64,000 bases of DNA from Mesorhizobium onobrychidis. Lineage in GTDB: Bacteria; Pseudomonadota; Alphaproteobacteria; Rhizobiales; Rhizobiaceae. A program made the position numbers and the translations under genes. Of this stretch, positions 33,461 to 45,837 are shown one piece after another. The notes below the pieces were generated by a model. That model saw only the letters and a program-made list of their open reading frames with translations. It did not search any database and was not told the DNA's origin. Position 1 is the first letter of the stretch, and each line of letters begins with the position of its first letter. The DNA is taken from positions 4,755,501-4,819,500 of the forward strand of contig NZ_CP062229.1 in the NCBI RefSeq assembly GCF_024707545.1. Direction: 5' to 3'.

Positions 33461-34576
33461 TTGAGCGTCATTCGCGCCCTGGAAGGTGCCGATCTTCCGG
33501 CAGTCGCGGGCATGTTTCAACGCGTGCTGCGCAAAGAGCGGACCGAAGCACCGGCCGCGCTCATCGACTATATGAGACGGTTTTATCTGGAGGCGCCCGG
33601 TTGCGGAGGCGAACTCCGCTCGCTTGTCCATGTCAACGACGCCGGCCGCATCTCCGGGTTTGTCGGCGTTCACGTGTTGCCGATGCAATTCAACGGCCGA
33701 CAATTACGCGCCGCCATCTGCAGCTCGCTCATGGTCGAGGATCATGAGCGCGACCCGATGGCCGGAGCCCGCTTGTTGAAAGCTTACCTGGACGGTCCGC
33801 AGGACATCTCCTTCAGCGAGACGGCCAATGATATTTCCACGAAATTGTGGACCCGGCTGCGCGGCGTTGTCCTGCCGCAATACAGCCTTGACTGGGTACG
33901 CGTGATGCGGCCGTCGAGCTTTGTGCTCGGCCTTTCCGCCAGTCGCATGAAGCTTGCCAGAATGCTTAATCCGTTTGCGCATGCCCTCGACCGATTTTAT
34001 TGCAGGCGAATGAAGTCAAGCGAACGACGCTGGTCCGGTGTGGCGGCGGACGGGGCAGGCCATGGCGCTTTTCGGACGTCGGAAATCGACAGCGGCACAT
34101 TTGCCACGCTCGTCGAACCGTTGACCGCCCAGTTCGCCCTGCGCCCGGCGTGGGCGGAAAGCCAACTTGCTCATATCCTGACCGATGCGGCACAAAAGCT
34201 GGATCTGGGCGAGCTTGTCTACGTTTCCGTGGCATCGCCAGTCGGCAGCAATGTCGGCGCATTCGCCTATCACGTACGGGCGGGTGAAATCGGTCGCGTG
34301 CTGCAGATCCTCGCCCTCCCCGGCCAGGCGGGTTCCGTCATCGACTGCCTGATCGATCATGCCGCCGTACGCGGCGTCAGCGGCCTGCGCGGACGCATTC
34401 AACCCGCACTTCTGGAAGCAATGCTTGGGCGACGCATAGCTTTCCTAACCGTTGCCTCGACCGTGGTGCATTCACGCGATCCCGAGCTTTTGGATGCCAT
34501 GAAGAACTCGCAAGCTTTCCTGAACGGGCTTGCGGGCGAGCAGTGGAGCCGCCTGATCGGCGGCCGCTTCACCTGA
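33461..34576 (+). CDS. GNAT-like acyltransferase of unknown function
   Basis: 371 residues. N-terminal half (about 1-110) has a GNAT-like pattern: IRALEGADLPAVAGMFQRVLR, FVGVHVLPMQFNGRQLRAAIC and a SLMVEDHERDPMAGARLLKAY stretch in the acetyl-CoA-binding position. The rest is unassigned. I recall similar proteins near asnB-type genes in polysaccharide or natural-product clusters, which fits the neighbourhood. The start is TTG 33461, supported by GGAG 6 bases upstream; no ATG is well placed. It converges on the monooxygenase gene and could act in the same pathway. No signal peptide. Confidence 0.6.
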   Translation: MSVIRALEGADLPAVAGMFQRVLRKERTEAPAALIDYMRRFYLEAPGCGGELRSLVHVNDAGRISGFVGVHVLPMQFNGRQLRAAICSSLMVEDHERDPMAGARLLKAYLDGPQDISFSETANDISTKLWTRLRGVVLPQYSLDWVRVMRPSSFVLGLSASRMKLARMLNPFAHALDRFYCRRMKSSERRWSGVAADGAGHGAFRTSEIDSGTFATLVEPLTAQFALRPAWAESQLAHILTDAAQKLDLGELVYVSVASPVGSNVGAFAYHVRAGEIGRVLQILALPGQAGSVIDCLIDHAAVRGVSGLRGRIQPALLEAMLGRRIAFLTVASTVVHSRDPELLDAMKNSQAFLNGLAGEQWSRLIGGRFT

Positions 34577-34765
34577 AGCATTCAGTCGTGCGGGAGCGAA
34601 GTTATTGGCTGATCGTTGGAGGCCTTTGCCTTCGCTCAGTGGGAACGTCGCTAAGGGGCGAGACGTGACCTGGTGGCGGCGCAAGGCGGTGGCTGACGAT
34701 CTGCCGGCCTCTGACACTGATCCCGGCCCTGACTGTCAGGAGCTTCTTGACTATGCCAAAGGCGG

Positions 34766-36022
34766 TCACGAATGCCCTGCGATATGTTCGACAAGGCGAG
34801 GTGCTTCCTCGGCGATCACCAAGATGATGCCTGACTTGCGTGTGGAGGCGAAGTCCAGCCCTGCGAAGTAAAGGCCCGGCAGGGCGGCCACGCCATCCAC
34901 GTGAACAGGCTGTCCCGCGTTGTCGAGCGCACCGGGAAGCCTCATCCAACTGAAATCGCCCTTAAAGCCCGTGCACCACACCACGCTCGTTACGCCGGAG
35001 CGGGAGAGATCGAGCGAACCGATCGTCGGGTTCGGCTGACGCATCGCGACCGTCTCCGCCGGGTCGGGCTCCGCAACGGGTGCATCGATCCCCATGCGGC
35101 TGATATAGTCGTCGACATGGCGTTTGACATTTTCGGAGGCTTCATCCGCAAAGCGGACATTCGCTTCGAGATCGTCGGCAAACGAGAGGTTGCCGCCATC
35201 CTCGATGCCGGTGAGACGCCCAAGCAGCACGACACCTCGGGCGCTGAGCGCTTGAAGGCTTATCGTGTGCACCGACCCGAGCACGCCACGCGGCGGGATG
35301 CGTCCCGCAAGTCGAATGACATCCTCCCGGCAGACGTCGAGAAACCCGCTTTCGAGCAGCCAGACCATGATGTCGCGACCCCGGTAGCGCCGTGGAAGCC
35401 GTCCGACACGACTGGTCGCAAGGAAGACCGTTCGACCCGTGTCTGCCAATTCCTCCGCGATCTGAGCACCAGATTGGCCGCTTCCGACCACCAGCACCGC
35501 TCCATCGGGCAGATCGGCAGCGCTGCGGTAGCCGGAAGCGTCGATCTGGCGGAGAGCTGGCGACAACGCGGCGGCCCAGACCGGGCGCACCGGACAATTC
35601 AGGCTGCCGCTTGCGACGATCACATTGCGCGCCCAAAGCGTGCCCTGTGAGGTGGTCAGCCGATAGGCGCCATTCTCGTGCGTGAGTTCGCTTACCGCAG
35701 TATCCGGTTCGATCGGTAGCGCGTTGCGCCCGGCGAAATCCTCAAGGAGAGTGACGAACTGATCGCGCGTCAGGGCACCATCCGGATCCGGACCGTCATA
35801 GCAATCGCCCGGCATGACGGTCTGCACGTTGGGAGTATTCATCCGAAATAAATCCCATCGCTGTGTGCGCCAGGTCTCTCCTATGCGGCCCCGCTCCAAT
35901 ACGCTGTGGCGCAGGCCCCGTCGCGCCAGCCAATAGCTGACACCCAGGCCGGCCCAGCCGGCCCCGATGACGACAGCATCGAGAACATCGCCGCCATCGG
36001 TCATTTGCTGCGGTGATCTCAT
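34766..36022 (-). CDS. FAD-dependent monooxygenase (flavin-containing monooxygenase-like)
   Basis: About 418 residues. FAD-binding AVVIGAGWAGLG near the N terminus, a second NAD(P)-binding GxGxxG in VLVVGSGQSGAQIAEEL, and late VVWCTGFKGDFSWM matching the ATG-type motif of FMO/Baeyer-Villiger-like enzymes. Probable N- or S-hydroxylase or ketone monooxygenase; substrate unknown. Start uncertain among ATG 36046, 36022 and 36004; 36022 is chosen for a GGGGGCG stretch upstream. Lies 364 bases beyond the nadE-like gene and its terminator, so it is a separate transcript. Confidence 0.75.
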   Translation of the reverse strand: MRSPQQMTDGGDVLDAVVIGAGWAGLGVSYWLARRGLRHSVLERGRIGETWRTQRWDLFRMNTPNVQTVMPGDCYDGPDPDGALTRDQFVTLLEDFAGRNALPIEPDTAVSELTHENGAYRLTTSQGTLWARNVIVASGSLNCPVRPVWAAALSPALRQIDASGYRSAADLPDGAVLVVGSGQSGAQIAEELADTGRTVFLATSRVGRLPRRYRGRDIMVWLLESGFLDVCREDVIRLAGRIPPRGVLGSVHTISLQALSARGVVLLGRLTGIEDGGNLSFADDLEANVRFADEASENVKRHVDDYISRMGIDAPVAEPDPAETVAMRQPNPTIGSLDLSRSGVTSVVWCTGFKGDFSWMRLPGALDNAGQPVHVDGVAALPGLYFAGLDFASTRKSGIILVIAEEAPRLVEHIAGHS

Positions 36023-36349
36023 AATCGCCCCCGGCAATCTCGCCATCCCCGCGCAGCATTAAGCCTTGTCCACGGCAACGAGTCCAGCACCGCCGATTTC
36101 CGTCCGACTGGCCGAGCGCATTCCGGTTCGCCAGCCTCTCGCCAGACCACAAGGCGAACCCGAGAACCTCCAACGTAGTCTCCATCGAGAAACTCCCTTT
36201 GCTCGTCCACGGAAAGCCGATCACAGATCAAGACGGGACAGGGCAATGTGGGGGCGGAACATCGGTCACCCTGAAGCGCTCGCCGTGGCTAATGCATGTC
36301 GCGCAAAAGTGTGCAGCGGTTTTGCGATAACGACATGCATAAAAACAAC

Positions 36350-36399
36350 AACCTAAAGCGCACCGCATGAGGCCGGTCAAACGCGACGCGCTTTAGGTT
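36350..36399 (-). terminator. Terminator after the asnB-ACP-ligase-nadE operon
   Basis: 12-bp perfect arms AACCTAAAGCGC (36350-36361) and GCGCTTTAGGTT (36388-36399) with a 26-base loop. On the minus strand it is followed by TTGTTGTTTTT. It sits 11 bases after the nadE-like stop. The rest of the gap 36023-36410 shows no gene. Confidence 0.7.
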
Positions 36400-36410
36400 G
36401 GAGAGGCAGC

Positions 36411-37418
36411 TCAGGTATCGACTTCCTCGACCTCATTAACGAGTTGCGGACGCAGGTGCAGATAGCGCGTCGCCTTGCGCTTGGCCGCGATGTCGGTCCA
36501 GACGCGTTCAACTTGCGAGGCAGTCAGTCCCGCCGCCTGCCCCACCACTTCGGCGGCCACGCCGTTGTTGAGGCCGCAAAGGCAAAGATCCATGCGGTCA
36601 TAGGGAAGCGAGAAGTAGAACTCCTCCTGCGTCTGTGCCAGCGAATAGGTATCGGTGGTCGGCGGCCGGATACGGATTTCCTCGGGAACGCCGAGATAGG
36701 CCGCGAGCGTGTAGACCTGCGTTTTATAGAGGTGGGCGATCGGCTTGACGTCCGCCGCGCCGTCACCGTTCTTGACGAAGAAGCCCTGATCGTATTCCAG
36801 CCGGTTGGGCGTTCCAAGAACGGCGAAGTTCAGGCGGTCGGCATGAAAATATTCGATCTGTTTGCGGGTGCGCTGCTTCATGTTGGTTGCGGCGACGATA
36901 CCGAGATAGACCTGGAGTGGCATTCTTATTTTGGTCTGCTTGCCATTGGGGTCCTGCACCACCAGCGACGAAATATTGTAGCCCTCGCCCTCGAGGGCGT
37001 TCGCAATCACGATCTTCGAGGCCCAGCCTTCGCCGTATTCCGGGACCAATTCGCGGATGAAAGCGTCGCGACGATCGTAGCAGCCCATCGCACGCAGGGC
37101 CGGCCCGATATCCTCTGCGATAGCCTCGACACCGAAAGTATCGGCGACAAGGCGGCCGAGCCGTAGACTTTCCGGATCGGAATCGTTTTCCGGCATGAAG
37201 AGGCAAAGTACATTCTGGTGGCCGACGGCGCGCGCGGCCAAGGCGACCGAAACGCTGGAATCGATCCCGCCGGAAAGACCGAGCACGAGGCCGCGCTTGC
37301 GGATGCCGCGCAACTGCTTGCGCAAGGCCGTCACGATCCTGTCCGTTTCGACGGCGGGGTCGATCGCCAGAGCCTGCGCCAGAAAGGTCTGCGCGTCCTG
37401 GGTCGGGCGAACACTCAC
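36411..37418 (-). CDS. nadE: NAD synthetase-like (NadE) ATP-pyrophosphatase without a glutaminase domain
   Basis: 335 residues. PP-loop GLSGGIDSSVSVAL (about 47-60), FAVLGTPNRLEYDQGFFVKNGDGAAD, and IRIRPPTTDTYSLAQTQEEFYFSLPY as in ammonia-dependent NAD synthetases. It lacks the N-terminal nitrilase/glutaminase domain, so it needs free ammonia or a partner. The ATG overlaps the stop of the acyl ligase gene (ATGA). Either a genuine NAD synthetase or a co-opted amidating enzyme for the product of this cluster; context favours the second, sequence cannot decide. Confidence 0.82.
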   Translation of the reverse strand: MSVRPTQDAQTFLAQALAIDPAVETDRIVTALRKQLRGIRKRGLVLGLSGGIDSSVSVALAARAVGHQNVLCLFMPENDSDPESLRLGRLVADTFGVEAIAEDIGPALRAMGCYDRRDAFIRELVPEYGEGWASKIVIANALEGEGYNISSLVVQDPNGKQTKIRMPLQVYLGIVAATNMKQRTRKQIEYFHADRLNFAVLGTPNRLEYDQGFFVKNGDGAADVKPIAHLYKTQVYTLAAYLGVPEEIRIRPPTTDTYSLAQTQEEFYFSLPYDRMDLCLCGLNNGVAAEVVGQAAGLTASQVERVWTDIAAKRKATRYLHLRPQLVNEVEEVDT

Positions 37419-38962
37419 TGCGCGGCCTCCATCATCTCTGCCGCAAGCCGACGGCTGACCTTGCCCGTATCCGTCTTCGGCAGTTCCCGGCGGAACTCGA
37501 TGACCTTGGGGACCATGAAGTCCTCAAGGTGACGTGCGCAATGGCGCATGACATCTTTTTCGCTGAGCTTCGGGTCCGAGCGTACGACGAATGCGCCGAT
37601 CGCATGCCCGAGCACCGGATCCGGCACGCCGACGACAACGGCTTCCGCGACGCCGGGATGGGCGTGAAGCACGGCTTCCACTTCCTTCGGGGCCACCTTC
37701 TCTCCCCGCGTCTTTATGATGTCGTCCTTGCGGCCGACGAAATAGAGAAAGCCGTCCTCATCGGTCCTGAACAGGTCACCGGTGTAGAGAACCTTCTCCC
37801 AAGGAACCGGGCCCGCTCTGAGCACTCGTTCCGTCGCAGCTTCGTTTCGCCAATAACCTTGCATGACGTGCGGTCCGCGAATGACCAGTTCACCCGCTAC
37901 GCCTGGCGGCACGCGTTGCCCGTGGTCGTCGACGACAAAGGCTTCGGTGTTCGGGATGGCTATTCCGACCGACCCCGGCCGGCGATCGAGCTCCTCGGGC
38001 GGCAGGTAGGTGCAGCGCTTGCATTCCGTCAGGCCATACATCGAATAGAGCCTGACACCGGGAAAAAGGAATCGCAGACGTTCTATATGAGCCGGCGGCA
38101 AGGCAGCCGCCGTGTTGGAAATATAGCGAACGCTGGGCAGGAAGCCCGGCGTCAGGTCACGCATCTGCAGGATCATCGCTGCCATCGTGGGCACAAGCGG
38201 AAAACCGGTGGCGCCTTCCTCGCGGATACGCTCAAAGATCGCTTGAGGAAAGGCGAAGGACTTCTCGAGCACGAGCGTGGCGCCGAGCCTGACGGCCATC
38301 AGCAACTGATAGAGGCCATAGTCGAAAGAGAGTGGAAGGACATTCAGAATGATGTCATCGGGCGTGTTACGCAGATAGGTGGTGATGGAGTCCGCTGCCG
38401 CGTCGCAATTGCGGTGCGTCATCATCACGCCCTTGGGCCGGCCCGTTGAGCCTGAGGTGTAGATCAACATCGCAAGATCGACGTCAATGCCACGGTGGTC
38501 TATCTCTCTGGCTTCGAGCGTCAGGCAGTCCGCCAGGGATGCAGCCCCTACCGGGCATTGGCCATCGGCACCAGCGGTCGAAGCCACGAAGATGCCGGTT
38601 TTGCCGTGCGATCCGCAGGCTTCAGCGACCACGGGCATCAGTTTTGCTTGCGTGAGGATCGCCGCAGCGTCGCAATCGGCAATAATGTAGGCAAGCTTGT
38701 CGGCCTTGGTGGATGGGTTGACCGGACTGAAGGTCGCACCTGCCTTGAGGACGGCGAAAATCGAAACCGCGGCCTCCCAGCAATTGTCCATGAAAACGAT
38801 GACGCGGTCATCGCGCCTGACGCCGTTCAGGAAAAGGGCTGCGGCAAGGCGGCTCGAAAGATCGTCCAGTTCTTCGTAGCGCAGCCTTTTATGCGTGGTG
38901 ATCAATGCCGTTTTGGCGGGATGGGCAGCGGCCTTTGCGGCCAGAAAATGTTCGATCCGCAC
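37415..38962 (-). CDS. AMP-dependent acyl ligase (acyl-CoA/ACP synthetase)
   Basis: 515 residues of the ANL superfamily. P-loop YTSGSTGRPKG, SMYGLTECKR (A5), YTGDLFRTDEDGFLYF (A7), GRKDDIIKTRGEKVAPKEVE (A8) and catalytic Lys in LPKTDTGKVSRR. It adenylates a carboxylic acid and, with an ACP gene directly upstream, probably loads it onto that carrier. Start GTG 38962 (VRIEHFLAAKAA) is supported by GAGGAG 6 bases before it; the open frame to 39100 overlaps the ACP gene and lacks similarity. Resembles ligases found in exopolysaccharide and exosortase-type clusters. Confidence 0.87.
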   Translation of the reverse strand: MRIEHFLAAKAAAHPAKTALITTHKRLRYEELDDLSSRLAAALFLNGVRRDDRVIVFMDNCWEAAVSIFAVLKAGATFSPVNPSTKADKLAYIIADCDAAAILTQAKLMPVVAEACGSHGKTGIFVASTAGADGQCPVGAASLADCLTLEAREIDHRGIDVDLAMLIYTSGSTGRPKGVMMTHRNCDAAADSITTYLRNTPDDIILNVLPLSFDYGLYQLLMAVRLGATLVLEKSFAFPQAIFERIREEGATGFPLVPTMAAMILQMRDLTPGFLPSVRYISNTAAALPPAHIERLRFLFPGVRLYSMYGLTECKRCTYLPPEELDRRPGSVGIAIPNTEAFVVDDHGQRVPPGVAGELVIRGPHVMQGYWRNEAATERVLRAGPVPWEKVLYTGDLFRTDEDGFLYFVGRKDDIIKTRGEKVAPKEVEAVLHAHPGVAEAVVVGVPDPVLGHAIGAFVVRSDPKLSEKDVMRHCARHLEDFMVPKVIEFRRELPKTDTGKVSRRLAAEMMEAAQ

Positions 38963-38984
38963 GGACGCTCCTCGCCGATGGCGC

Positions 38985-39248
38985 CTACGCTGCCAGCGTT
39001 TCTGCTTTCGCCTTGATGAAGGACGAAATACGGTCAACCGAATCCAGGTTGGCCGGTACAATGTCGGAATCGACCATCGCAATACCGAAATTGTCCTCAA
39101 TGAAAGCCACGAGTTCCACCACGGCGGTCGAGTCGATGATGTCGTTCTCGATCAGCGAGGCTGTATCTGCAAGTTCGTACGACGTGTCGCCAAACAAGAA
39201 GTTGTCAACGATAAAGGCTCTGACCTTGTCCTTGATTGTTATCATCAT
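38985..39248 (-). CDS. Acyl carrier protein
   Basis: 87 residues. Four-helix carrier with the phosphopantetheine attachment Ser in ENDIIDSTAVVELVAFIE (DS motif). Acidic throughout, as usual for ACPs. ATG 39248 (MMITIKD) follows AAGGA with 5-base spacing; the upstream open frame overlaps asnB. It needs a 4'-phosphopantetheinyl transferase encoded elsewhere. Too divergent from AcpP to be the housekeeping copy; a dedicated carrier for the adjacent ligase. Confidence 0.87.
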   Translation of the reverse strand: MMITIKDKVRAFIVDNFLFGDTSYELADTASLIENDIIDSTAVVELVAFIEDNFGIAMVDSDIVPANLDSVDRISSFIKAKAETLAA

Positions 39249-39268
39249 TTTTTCCTTCCCTGGATTTC

Positions 39269-41206
39269 TCAGGCCGCTCGTGCTGCGCTGACTTCTTGGC
39301 TGGTGAAATTTTTCTGCCACAGTTGGGTCGATAGGATGCCGACGAAGGCCGCGTTGTCGCGGAACCCGGACGCTGGCTGCGTGCGGCATTTCTCATGAAG
39401 GTTCGCCACCGCCTTGGCGTTGAACAGTCCGCCGGCAGCGATGCTCGCTTCACTCAGCAAGTCGCGGACATAGTCCAGTTCCCCGGCTCCAACGAAGGAG
39501 CGGGCTTCTGGAGCCCGGTAAGGCTGTTTGGTACGCTCCCGGATCGCGGTGGGAAGCAGGTGCTTGGCTGCCTTGCGCAGTATGTGCTTTTCGACCAATC
39601 CCTTCAGCTTCATTTCCGGCGGAAGTCTCCCTGCGAACTCCACCAAGCGATGGTCGAGGAAAGGGAACCGTCCTTCGATACCGTGCGCCATGGCCATGCG
39701 ATCGCCTTGGCTGGACAGGATATAACCCGGCAGGAGGAAGCGGGTTTCGAGATATTGCGCCTGATGCAGCGGGTGCCACAGGGAAAATGCTTGGGGCAAC
39801 CGGCTGACCAGGTCCTCGGCGGCATCATAGCCCTTCAACGTCGCACGCAGGTCGCCGGAAAAGAAAATCTTTGCCGCCGCCGTCGTCTTGAAGCGCGGCC
39901 GATGCGAGAACAGCGGATCGTCGAGGGCAGCGTTGCCGGTGCCAAAGAATGCAGACAGGTACTCCACGGATTGCTGTTGCAGACCAGGCAGATAGGGATA
40001 AAGCCTGCGGAACAGCTGCGGCCTCATGCGCGATGCCGGCTGACGTCCGCAGAACCGCCGAACACGCGCTTCCCTAAAGACATCGTAGCCGGCGAAGACC
40101 TCGTCGGCGCCCTCGCCGGTCAGCACCACTTTGAGGCCAGCCTGCCGAACAAGGCCGGACAACTGGTAGAGAGGTGCCGGTGCCGTGCGGATGATCGGCC
40201 GCTCGGCAAAGCGGATGACTTCGGGGAAGACGCCGGCGATATCGCCGGCACGGCAGGCAACGGTTCGATGCCGGGCGCCAAGTGCTGAAGCCATTTCGGT
40301 CTGGAAAGCGCTCTCGTCGTGCTCGGCGCTGTCGAACGTCACGGAAAACGTCTGCAGTCTCCGAGGAGTCATGCCGGCGGCAAGCGCCGAAACAAGAGAT
40401 GAATCGAGCCCGCCCGAAAGATAAGAACCGACTGGCACGTCGGCGCGCATGCGAAGCCTCACCGCATCGGTCAAAAGGGCCTGCAGTTCGTCGGCCGCAT
40501 CGTCCTCGTTCGTGACCTTCGACGGCGCATCCCGATGCGGATAGTCGAGGTGCCAATAGCGTTTGACCGTGACTTGCTCCTGTGTCGCGATCAACACGCT
40601 TGCCGGCTCCAGCTCGTGGATATTGCGGAAAGCCGTGCGGGGAGCGATCGGCGCCCACAGCGTAAAGATCTGGTCGAGTGCAATCGGATCGATTTCGGCC
40701 GAGACGCCGGGGACCTTCAGGAGGGCTTTGATCTCCGACGCAAAGTAAAGCACGCCGTCCTTGCTCGTGTAGAACAGCGGCCGGACACCCATCCGGTCTC
40801 GGGCAAGCACCATACGCCGATGCCTGTTATCCCATATCGCGAAGGCGAAATCACCGTTCAGAAGCGACAGGCAGTCTTCGCCCATCTCGTCATACAGGTG
40901 CAGGATGACCTCTGTGTCGCTCGACGTACGGAAGCGCCGGCCCTTGGCTATCAGCCCTTCGCGCAGTTCCAGGTAGTTGAAAATCTCGCCGTTGAACGCA
41001 ATCGTCAAATTGCCTGACACGTCGGACATCGGCTGCTGGCCATCACCGATCCCGATCACCGACAGCCGCGCATGCCCGAGCCCAGCGTCCGGTGTTACAA
41101 ATTTCCCTTGCTCATCCGGCCCGCGATGGGCGATCGCAGCTATCATGCGCGCAAGCAAAGCTTCCGCATCCCGGATCGAACCGAAATAGCCCCCGAATCC
41201 GCACAT
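39269..41206 (-). CDS. asnB: Glutamine-hydrolysing asparagine synthetase-like amidotransferase
   Basis: 645 residues. Class II glutaminase domain begins at Cys2 (MCGFGGYFGS) with AHRGPDEQG, FNGEIFNYLELR and the SDTEVILHLYDE motif. The synthetase domain has the PP-loop SYLSGGLDSSLVSAL (about 265) and VLTGEGADEVFAGYD. Complete for ammonia release and amide transfer. Standard AsnB is about 550-650 residues. In natural-product clusters such proteins amidate carboxylates other than aspartate. First gene of a four-gene operon whose promoter should lie in the A/T-rich stretch 41260-41360. Confidence 0.9.
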   Translation of the reverse strand: MCGFGGYFGSIRDAEALLARMIAAIAHRGPDEQGKFVTPDAGLGHARLSVIGIGDGQQPMSDVSGNLTIAFNGEIFNYLELREGLIAKGRRFRTSSDTEVILHLYDEMGEDCLSLLNGDFAFAIWDNRHRRMVLARDRMGVRPLFYTSKDGVLYFASEIKALLKVPGVSAEIDPIALDQIFTLWAPIAPRTAFRNIHELEPASVLIATQEQVTVKRYWHLDYPHRDAPSKVTNEDDAADELQALLTDAVRLRMRADVPVGSYLSGGLDSSLVSALAAGMTPRRLQTFSVTFDSAEHDESAFQTEMASALGARHRTVACRAGDIAGVFPEVIRFAERPIIRTAPAPLYQLSGLVRQAGLKVVLTGEGADEVFAGYDVFREARVRRFCGRQPASRMRPQLFRRLYPYLPGLQQQSVEYLSAFFGTGNAALDDPLFSHRPRFKTTAAAKIFFSGDLRATLKGYDAAEDLVSRLPQAFSLWHPLHQAQYLETRFLLPGYILSSQGDRMAMAHGIEGRFPFLDHRLVEFAGRLPPEMKLKGLVEKHILRKAAKHLLPTAIRERTKQPYRAPEARSFVGAGELDYVRDLLSEASIAAGGLFNAKAVANLHEKCRTQPASGFRDNAAFVGILSTQLWQKNFTSQEVSAARAA

Positions 41207-43268: not shown

Positions 43269-44043
43269 TTGGATGCCCTGAAGTCGCTCATCGAATCGCG
43301 CCGCTTCGACCTCGCGATCATGGTCCTGATCCTGATCAACGCTGTCACGGCCTCGAAACCTCGCCCGACGCGATTGCTGCTTTTGGCCCGCTTCTAACGG
43401 CCATCGACCGCGCGATCCTCGGCGTCTTCGTGCTCGAACTCGCGATCCGGGCGGTCGTCTACAGGACGCGTTTCTTCCGCGATCCATGGCGCATCTTCGA
43501 CCTCTTCGTAGTCGGTTTCGCGCTCATCCCCGCGACCGGTTCGCTCTCCGTGCTGCGGGCGCTGCGCATCCTGCGGGTCCTGCGCCTGATCAGCATCGTT
43601 CCGTCGCTGCGCCGTGTCGTCACCGGCTTCATCACCGCCTTGCCCGGCATGGGCTCGATCATGCTGTTGCTCGGGTTGGTGTTCTACGTCTTTGCGGTGA
43701 TGGCGACGAAGCTCTACGGCTCGTCCTTTCCCGAACTGTTCGGCGGCAATCGCTCTTCACGCTTCTCCAGGTCATGACTCTCGAAGGCTGGTCGGACGGC
43801 GTGGTGCGCCCGGTCATGGAGGTCTACCCGACCGCCTGGCTGTTCTTCATCCCGTTCATCATCGCGACCTCGTTCACCGTGCTCAATCTGTTCATCGGCG
43901 TAATCGTTTCGGCGATGGAGGCCGAGCATGAAGCCGCGGAATCGGCCGATCGGGCGACGCTGCATAGCGATCAGGCCATCATCCTGGCGGAGTTACAGGC
44001 GCTGCGGGCAGAAGTCCGCGAATTGTCCGGCGTTCGCGGCTAG
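43269..44043 (+). pseudogene. Voltage-gated ion channel (NaChBac-like), copy 1, two frameshifts
   Basis: Six-helix voltage-gated channel remnant. The S4-like helix with Arg every third residue ([19 protein letters not shown]) and the selectivity-filter region [13 protein letters not shown] (TLE-x-W, as in bacterial sodium channels) are clear. Compared with copy 2, a 4-base loss near 43350 (CACGGCC instead of CACGCTCGGCC) breaks the frame after LILINAVT. A second break lies at 43745-43760, between FPELFGG and SLFTLLQVM, and is shared with copy 2. Start set at TTG 43269 after GGAG, beyond the palindromic element. Non-functional unless recoded. Confidence 0.82.
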
Positions 44044-44060
44044 ATCGCCTCATTCGGCGC

Positions 44061-44162
44061 CTCGACCTCCTGCAGTGACAGAATCGACGGCGCCGTGCCG
44101 GGCCGCGTCACCGAAATGGCGGCAACGGCGCAGGCGAAGCGCACCGCCCGCAGCGGTTCCAT
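44061..44162 (-). pseudogene. Fragment of the 3' end of rbsK
   Basis: About 100 bases closely matching 46170-46272, the C-terminal coding end of the ribokinase gene (shared stretches such as CGACGGCGCCGTGCCGGGCC and GCGCAGGCGAAGCG), in the same orientation. It is joined directly to the end of channel copy 1. Marks the right edge of a duplicated unit. Confidence 0.8.
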
Positions 44163-44170
44163 CTGCGGGT

Positions 44171-44671
44171 TTATTCACCCGTTTCGTCGGCACCTCCGTG
44201 GAAGAAGGATCGGATTTCCTCCCTGTCGACGCTGTCATCGCCGTTCTCGTCGACGGCGTTGAATATCCGCTCGATGAAATCCTGAACCTCGGTTTGAGAA
44301 AGCGCGCCATCGCCGTCGGCGTCGACTATGGCGAACATCATTCGCATCCGTGCGCCATGCATCACCCCGCCTCCCATCCGGCGCCCGTCATGTGGACCTC
44401 TTCGGAAATCGCGATGCCAACGATCGCCACCTCGTCGTTCTGCTCGGGGGCGGCGATGCTCCTGCATTCTCTCCTCCAGCATCTCAGTCATCATCTCACG
44501 CATCGTATTGCGCATGGAGTCTTCGGTTGGCCCGCTCACTCCTGGCGCTGGCTCTGAGCCACGATCCGGTGCAGGTGCGGCGGGCGCAGGTGAACTCGTC
44601 TGGGATAGTGCCGGCGAAGCCAGCATAGCCAACGCCGCGGCAACTGCTGTGGTCTTGCTTGCTAATGTCAT
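44171..44671 (-). CDS. Secreted EF-hand protein
   Basis: 166 residues. Signal peptide (about 1-24, [20 protein letters not shown] then ALSQ). A Pro/Ala-rich linker and a charged, Met/Arg-rich helical region ([29 protein letters not shown]) precede two EF-hand loops, [12 protein letters not shown] and [12 protein letters not shown], each with the acidic residues at positions 1, 3, 5 and 12. Likely a periplasmic calcium-binding protein. ATG 44671 has a perfect AAGGAG 6 bases upstream. Located between the two channel copies, opposite in strand. Confidence 0.85.
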
Positions 44672-44872
44672 CGTATTCTCCTTGGAGAATGGTGAACCGA
44701 ACGTGTCGGCATCCAGCCAAACCCGCTGCTCCCCCGCATGGTTCCTGGCGACTTGGTAGATGATCGCTGCGTGCCGCTTCATCCTTCGCGCTGCCGTAGA
44801 AAAATGCAGTCCCTGCAGCGACATAGAGTAGTGATTGGCTTTGACAGCGGGCCAGAGGCCATTTCCGGCCGG

Positions 44873-44897
44873 GGCCTGTCACGCTGGAGGTCGCGGA
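44873..44897 (+). pseudogene. tRNA-Asp fragment (anticodon-arm region)
   Basis: GGCCTGTCACGCTGGAGGTCGCGG matches the anticodon arm and variable loop of tRNA-Asp (about 43050-43072) with one mismatch. The T-arm and acceptor are deleted (about 34 bases missing), and homology resumes with ATGGCCCAGG versus ATGGCTCAAG after the real tRNA. Shows that copy 2 derives from a duplication starting inside tRNA-Asp. Confidence 0.8.
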
Positions 44898-44914
44898 TGG
44901 CCCAGGTTCCTTAA

Positions 44915-44962
44915 TACAAAAAGTTTCGACTTTCGGTTTCCTGAGAGTTTCAACTTTTTGTA
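44915..44962. repeat. Dyad (TACAAAAAGTT / AACTTTTTGTA), copy 2
   Basis: Same 11-bp arms as at 43125-43172, kept in front of channel copy 2. Conservation of both arms, while the loop has two substitutions, suggests a retained structure or recent duplication. Confidence 0.55.
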
Positions 44963-45058
44963 TTTGTTGCGTTCCAAGCCTGTCATATGCGTTTGAGCAT
45001 TGGATTTTCCCGAACCCGGTTCCCACTTTGGGTCCGATGCTCTAACGGAGAAGAAGCC

Positions 45059-45837
45059 TTGGACGCCCTGAAATCGCACATCGAATCGCGCCATTTCGAC
45101 CTCACGATCATGGTCCTGATCCTGATCAACGCCGTCACGCTCGGCCTCGAAACCTCGCCCGATGCGATTGCTGTTTTTGGCCCGCTTCTAACGGCCATCG
45201 ACCGCGCGATCCTCGGCGTCTTCGTCCTCGAACTCGCGATCCGGGTGGTCGTCTACAGAACGCATTTCTTCCGCGATCCATGGCGCATCTTCGACCTCTT
45301 GGTCGTCGGTTTCGCGCTTATCCCCGCGACCGGTTCGCTCTCCGTGTTAAGGGCGCTGCGCATCCTGCGGGTCCTGCGCCTGATCAGCATCGTTCCGTCG
45401 CTGCGCCGTGTCGTCACCGGCTTCATCACCGCCTTGCCCGGCATGGGCTCGATCATGCTGTTGCTCGGGCTGGTGTTCTATGTCTTTGCGGTGATGGCGA
45501 CGAAGCTCTACGGCTCGTCCTTTCCCGAACTGTTCGGCGGCAATCGCTCTTCACGCTTCTCCAGGTCATGACTCTCGAAGGCTGGTCGGACGGCGTGGTG
45601 CGCCCGGTCATGGAGGTCTACCCGACCGCCTGGCTGTTCTTCATCCCATTCATCATCGCGACCTCGTTCACCGTGCTCAATCTGTTCATCGGCGTGATCG
45701 TTTCGGCGATGGAGGCCGAGCATGAAGCCGTAGAATCGGCCGACAGGGCAACGCTGCACAGCGATCAGGCCACCATCCTTGCGGAGATACAGGCGCTACG
45801 GGCGGAGGTCCGGGAATTGTCGAGCGTTCGCGGCTAG
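45059..45837 (+). pseudogene. Voltage-gated ion channel (NaChBac-like), copy 2, pore frameshift
   Basis: From TTG 45059 (GGAG 8 bases upstream) the frame runs through S1-S5: [20 protein letters not shown], voltage sensor [19 protein letters not shown], and [19 protein letters not shown]. It fails after FPELFGG, ending at 45571. The rest ([20 protein letters not shown], then S6 [20 protein letters not shown] and a coiled-coil tail) is in the next frame to 45837. One extra base (or 3k+1) at about 45540 would give a 259-residue channel, the usual size. Copy 1 has the same pore break, so it predates the duplication. Confidence 0.84.

Follow-up and report, generated by a model that had tools for sequence, protein, structure and literature searches.

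A stretch of 64,000 nucleotides from the genome of Mesorhizobium onobrychidis (contig NZ_CP062229.1, positions 4,755,501 to 4,819,500; hereafter the window) raises the question of what a single operon might do with relatives of asparagine synthetase (AsnB), an acyl carrier protein (ACP), an acid-activating ligase and the nicotinamide adenine dinucleotide (NAD) synthetase NadE. The four minus-strand genes asnB, acp, ligase and nadE follow one another closely: 20 bases separate asnB from acp and 22 separate acp from the ligase gene, while ligase and nadE overlap by 4. They form a real, conserved operon; the arrangement is not due to chance, because exactly its gene order recurs among 116 compared loci. 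Together with a convergent gene for a tandem GNAT protein, the operon may build an amide-bearing acyl group on the carrier for transfer to a surface polysaccharide, at an amino sugar or similar amine, a reading in which we place roughly even confidence. The features concerned are as follows.

39269..41206, minus strand: asnB-like glutamine amidotransferase/synthetase, 645 aa, with the glutaminase Cys2, the SGGLDSS loop and the module-typical RTAP motif (residues 340-343)
38985..39248, minus strand: acyl/peptidyl carrier protein (ACP), 87 aa, with a D-S-T phosphopantetheine site (Ser40)
37415..38962, minus strand: ANL ligase, GTG start, 515 aa, best matches in PDB to adenylation domains of nonribosomal peptide synthetases (NRPS)
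36411..37418, minus strand: NadE-like ammonia-type synthetase of subfamily NF002048/PRK00876, 335 aa, GTG start
36350..36399, minus strand: intrinsic terminator at the end of the operon, from folding against shuffles
33461..34576, plus strand: tandem GNAT-fold acyltransferase-like gene, convergent with the operon, a recurrent partner
34766..36046, minus strand: flavin-dependent monooxygenase-like gene between nadE and the GNAT-like gene, a probable bystander

Conservation and architecture of the operon

The 116 loci, all selected through a NadE match, comprise the best 80 of 328 named genome loci, 30 further loci (all other NF002048 hits above the cut-off from 61 near genomes and 398 genomes of the phylum, with their surroundings) and six annotated stretches taken from 116 plasmid records with a match. 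Close relatives dominate the sample because the 80 are the best of 328, and at least four pairs of loci represent the same genome or record twice (L076/L097, L074/L107, L078/L165 and L136/L177). Counting presence as a tblastn match within the stretch rather than as strict adjacency, we found NadE, ligase and ACP at all 116 loci and AsnB at 115, the full set of four thus occurring together at 115 of the 116. Two main gene orders occur: AsnB-ACP-ligase-NadE, as in the window, and a second architecture, NadE-AsnB-ligase-ACP, at 15 loci. The 16 nearest named loci (among the best 80 of 328) all belong to Mesorhizobium, with NadE identities of up to 96%. Pairwise distances of five proteins are correlated with r from 0.86 to 0.97, and for each of the ten pairs none of 500 permutations was as high; this test leaves in shared host ancestry, which contributes to the correlation.

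In the second architecture, nadE is preceded by a gene for adenylation and thioesterase domains, between which a carrier-like part can be read by eye, and a second ligase-like match lies upstream of nadE at 12 of the 15 loci. At the locus of Mesorhizobium sp. AR07 (L175, 9235-12972), the adenylation-thioesterase open reading frame (ORF) continues in frame into NadE, giving 1245 codons.

Coordinates and domains agree with the preliminary description of the window, which had proposed a compact minus-strand operon; its grouping of a dedicated ACP and a ligase with two enzymes that form amides, both ATP pyrophosphatases, is supported. The overlap that it gave as ATGA is real in length but reads GTGA, because the start codon of NadE is GTG. 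The terminator placed at 36350-36399 is likewise borne out: the minus strand of 36340-36412 forms a long stem with a T tract behind it, at -31.9 kcal/mol where shuffled sequences average -19.0 (z -4.3; none of 200 shuffles equally good). This hairpin is missing from the output of a simple terminator scan, and a promoter scan found none, which is under the chance mean.

The order AsnB-ACP-ligase-NadE also occurs on pSymB of Sinorhizobium meliloti, with a GNAT match in the S. meliloti stretch L173, and we found no difference in the core; the pSymB NadE of strain 1021 is about 82% identical to that of the window. The S. meliloti operon reportedly consists of asnB, ACP, ligase and nadE1 (a 2009 description by Ramos-Vega). 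The genes SMb20650 and SMb20651 are probably those at the matching pSymB place of strain 1021. According to PMC7232532, SMb20650 shares a transcript with SMb20651, the gene of the ACP, does not replace FadD and, when expressed, gives acylated SMb20651 in E. coli; only the carrier and the ligase of this operon appear to have been studied. PMC10315480 lists smb20650 among genes down-regulated under predation. An operon of this order is thus already in print, so that the gene set is not undescribed, as had been supposed; as to a pathway, we found no description in the open-access literature for the gene set, for NadE-like enzymes or for such enzymes in polysaccharide clusters, and to that extent the supposition stands.

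Proteins of the operon

The NadE-like protein contains an NAD_synthase domain and no glutaminase domain (Pfam) and scores 523.9 bits against NF002048/PRK00876 (curated cut-off 313). Compared with the NadE structure 2e18, the region of residues ~110-178 is extended by about 50 residues and includes invariant ones, and the ATP-site motifs are kept, together with conserved changes specific to the module. This subfamily is patchily distributed: 17 of the 61 near genomes and 15 of the 398 phylum genomes sampled have a protein above its cut-off (the M. onobrychidis genome is in both counts). The family itself is sizeable: with one divergent member as the reference, at least 7,994 candidates pass E 1e-60 (out of 8,000 scored), membership of the module being a separate matter. 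Elsewhere in the genome, a second NadE of 583 codons is of the glutamine-dependent type, because it possesses both carbon-nitrogen hydrolase and NAD synthase domains. The NadE of the window is therefore accessory and not the sole NAD synthetase, and the genome also encodes two further AsnB-like proteins above the family cut-off. A change of substrate within the NadE family is represented by the Francisella nicotinamide mononucleotide (NMN) synthetase 3fiu, which is much shorter than the window NadE between two matching blocks. A NadE homologue acting as an NMN synthetase is reported in PMC3376133, and other NadE types are the subject of PMC7196632.

AsnB has glutaminase and synthetase domains (Pfam) and scores 513.8 bits against the asparagine synthase family TIGR01536 (curated cut-off 267). 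Its catalytic motifs are kept, with module-specific changes alongside. Unlike E. coli AsnB, all 116 alignment rows have the R-T-A of the RTAP motif; at this place the module has two residues fewer than E. coli with its stretch TTIRASTP, presumably the aspartate site. Another AsnB-like protein of the same genome also lacks the E. coli stretch. The best solved match, the hydroxyamidotransferase 7ylz of the AsnB family, covers nearly the full length at 231 bits and is distant.

The ligase carries an AMP-binding domain, and its best matches in PDB are NRPS adenylation domains, those of the carrier being peptidyl carriers. The ACP has no Pfam match, and its matches to ACP families of NCBIfam are under the cut-off, the best being the ornithine-lipid ACP NF052616 (55 bits, cut-off 130). 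Pairs of a stand-alone adenylation protein and a peptidyl carrier are known among the PDB matches of the window (the prolyl-carrier ligase 6o6e, PltL and PigG); compared with pairs of the prolyl ligase/PltL and PigG types, the pair of the window is additionally linked to two amide-forming enzymes. Another related group are the XrtA/PEP-CTERM loci, whose family TIGR03098 is the best NCBIfam match of the ligase (462 bits, cut-off 592) and TIGR03108 the second-best of AsnB (443 bits, cut-off 817). Membership of an XrtA/exosortase system was rejected on these scores and on the lack of any match to exosortase PF09721 in the genome, a search that matched one of 14 control genomes.

Partner genes and genomic setting

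The GNAT-like protein has no Pfam or NCBIfam match. Its predicted model has a tandem GNAT fold that resembles N-myristoyltransferase and Eis-type enzymes, in line with the acyltransferase partner proposed at the outset. Any match to it occurs in varied positions at 91 of the 116 loci, and at 87 (88 rows including the window) when coverage has to reach 75% and identity 33%; the count missed the annotated GNAT gene of L176. Among the 61 near genomes, all eight with a strong match (>300 bits) also have an NF002048 NadE. From this co-occurrence, the tandem GNAT gene appears to belong to the module. In one genome (G016, loci L204 and L073), the GNAT gene is split, its two parts lying on opposite strands of one contig at a distance of about 0.42 Mb, as after an inversion. 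A distant GNAT paralogue (~230 bits, ~30% identity) is present in 15 genus mates, in 13 of which its coordinates lie ~4-5 kb from the housekeeping nadE; it was dropped because searches of L197-L199 with the module proteins matched GNAT and NadE only.

Clustering of neighbouring genes revealed a methyltransferase of the HemK/PrmC family at 74 of the 116 loci, in both architectures. The M. ciceri copy scores 158 bits against the HemK/PrmC family (cut-off 115.5) and misses the PrmC cut-off (180 versus 199). The NCBI name of the true PrmC family refers to methylation of the glutamine amide nitrogen, and the relative in the module may likewise methylate an amide. No methyltransferase match better than E 0.2 exists in the window. 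Elsewhere in the same genome, a 55% homologue of the PrmC-like methyltransferase lies beside a stray ACP gene (L213, 9436-10440, within C1:4228000-4247900). It is 75% identical to a second-architecture copy and convergent with the ACP gene, and the L213 stretch has no match to AsnB, ligase or NadE; the pair looks like a remnant of a lost second-architecture cluster.

The comparative setting also includes genes for surface polysaccharides; both this and the recurrent methyltransferase had been missed in the preliminary description. At 100 bits, at least one polysaccharide class (Wzx, Wzy, Wzz, glycosyltransferases, deacetylase) lies within ~12 kb at 62 of the 116 loci, from several lineages, and at least two at 54. 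The query proteins come from the same loci, the threshold was set after a first count of 51/116 (with another filter and fewer queries), and the annotated polysaccharide genes of L175 are left out of the 62. Ten control stretches that lack the four-gene module gave one class in two cases and two classes in none; they are not random, because they were fetched for GNAT, NadE or AsnB matches. Among the 80 named loci, neighbour families, each named from one representative, include Wzz at 40, Wzx at 39, Wzy at 36, glycosyltransferase at 32 and deacetylase at 31. Wzx/Wzy genes adjoin the module in some strains of Bosea, Rhizobium or Chelativorans. Of the 17 loci made up by the second architecture (15) and two loci of other order, 11 have a Wza-like export protein among their neighbours, 9 a DegT aminotransferase and 7 an epimerase. 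Glycosyltransferases adjoin the module in Azospirillum and in one Shinella stretch; a second Shinella stretch has none. At four loci from outside the class, the module lies amid glycosyltransferases, Wzy, deacetylases or acyltransferases. One of these four, the Alkalilimnicola module (L072), is located inside an exopolysaccharide locus of the XrtA type with a TIGR03006 deacetylase (391 bits, cut-off 276), its ligase and AsnB being likewise under the TIGR03098 and TIGR03108 cut-offs. A parallel, not a proof, comes from floc-forming bacteria, in which two asparagine synthetase genes lie within an exopolysaccharide cluster, as PMC9012009 describes.

Proposed pathway and its alternatives

To judge from sequence comparison, this setting points to the decoration of polysaccharides with an amide-bearing acyl group. 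The ligase would adenylate an acid and load it on the carrier, the step for which the S. meliloti orthologue provides carrier acylation in E. coli only. Carboxylates of the acid, or of a precursor, could then be converted into amides by AsnB, drawing on glutamine, and by the NadE-like enzyme, drawing on ammonia. Where present, the PrmC-like enzyme might N-methylate the amide. The tandem GNAT protein would take the acyl group off the carrier and attach it to an amine, a role that the adenylation-carrier-thioesterase protein may fill in the second architecture. We infer all steps past carrier loading, as well as their order, the substrate and the product. The model should lose the monooxygenase and gain the tandem GNAT protein and, at other loci, the PrmC-like methyltransferase.

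If the decoration pathway exists, many database entries named "NAD(+) synthase" or "asparagine synthase" describe surface-sugar chemistry instead. It would also give a known but unexplained rhizobial carrier protein a testable role and a link to cell-surface polysaccharides. Its fullest form is a widespread, unrecognised surface-sugar chemistry in which NadE- and AsnB-derived enzymes amidate an acid on the carrier, a PrmC-derived enzyme N-methylates the amide and the GNAT protein transfers the N-methylamide-bearing group to an amino sugar, so that housekeeping enzyme types of NAD synthesis, asparagine synthesis and release-factor methylation would have been recruited into one route. This is a tentative proposal that we consider rather improbable.

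Several observations weigh against the decoration pathway. In the window, no polysaccharide genes adjoin the operon or show among the ORFs, and the genome has no match to the linked Wzx (in a search run without a positive control). At 54 of the 116 loci, no polysaccharide class reaches 100 bits; S. meliloti and further close relatives belong to this group. The GNAT gene matches at none of the 15 second-architecture loci, and nine of the 17 near genomes with an NF002048 NadE have no strong GNAT match. The NadE-like protein keeps the ATP-site motifs, so it may still synthesize NAD.

The loci free of polysaccharide genes are what would be expected if the product of the operon were a lipid or small molecule, such as an acyl amide or aminoacyl conjugate, and its linkage to polysaccharide genes reflected hitch-hiking in surface-related islands. 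The same alternative gains from the ornithine-lipid family as best match of the ACP and from the ligase, described in PMC7232532 as long-chain acyl-coenzyme A ligase-like and giving an acylated carrier in E. coli. We regard it as possible, if on balance doubtful, given that the polysaccharide linkage recurs across gene orders and machinery (Wzx/Wzy, XrtA-type and DegT/Wza).

Ordinary metabolism, with an asparagine synthetase and, as an auxiliary enzyme, an ammonia-dependent NAD synthetase encoded beside an unrelated ACP/ligase pair, could draw on the retained ATP-site motifs but is quite unlikely: the four genes keep together at 115 loci, unexpected for unrelated metabolic genes, the genome already has a glutamine-dependent NadE and further AsnB-like genes, and AsnB and NadE have conserved changes of their own.

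The scheme proposed first, in which NadE forms an amide with AsnB-derived ammonia and N-oxidation by the monooxygenase and acylation follow, has all its genes together in the window but deserves almost no credence, since the ammonia supply is not supported and the monooxygenase, present at only seven of the 116 loci, leaves N-oxidation without comparative support. These seven loci are all from Mesorhizobium, two of them from the same genome, and the monooxygenase was rejected as a pathway member. Its assignment to the most similar named family, the MSMEG_0569 flavoproteins, was also rejected (333 bits, cut-off 498).

Elsewhere in the window, the ORF list shows an ion-channel-like gene in duplicate at 43430-45837 (ORFs 43430-43777/43486-44043 and 44987-45571/45280-45837), with a frame change at seemingly the same place in either copy. 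An EF-hand-like ORF (44171-44824, minus strand) lies between the two copies in the same list.
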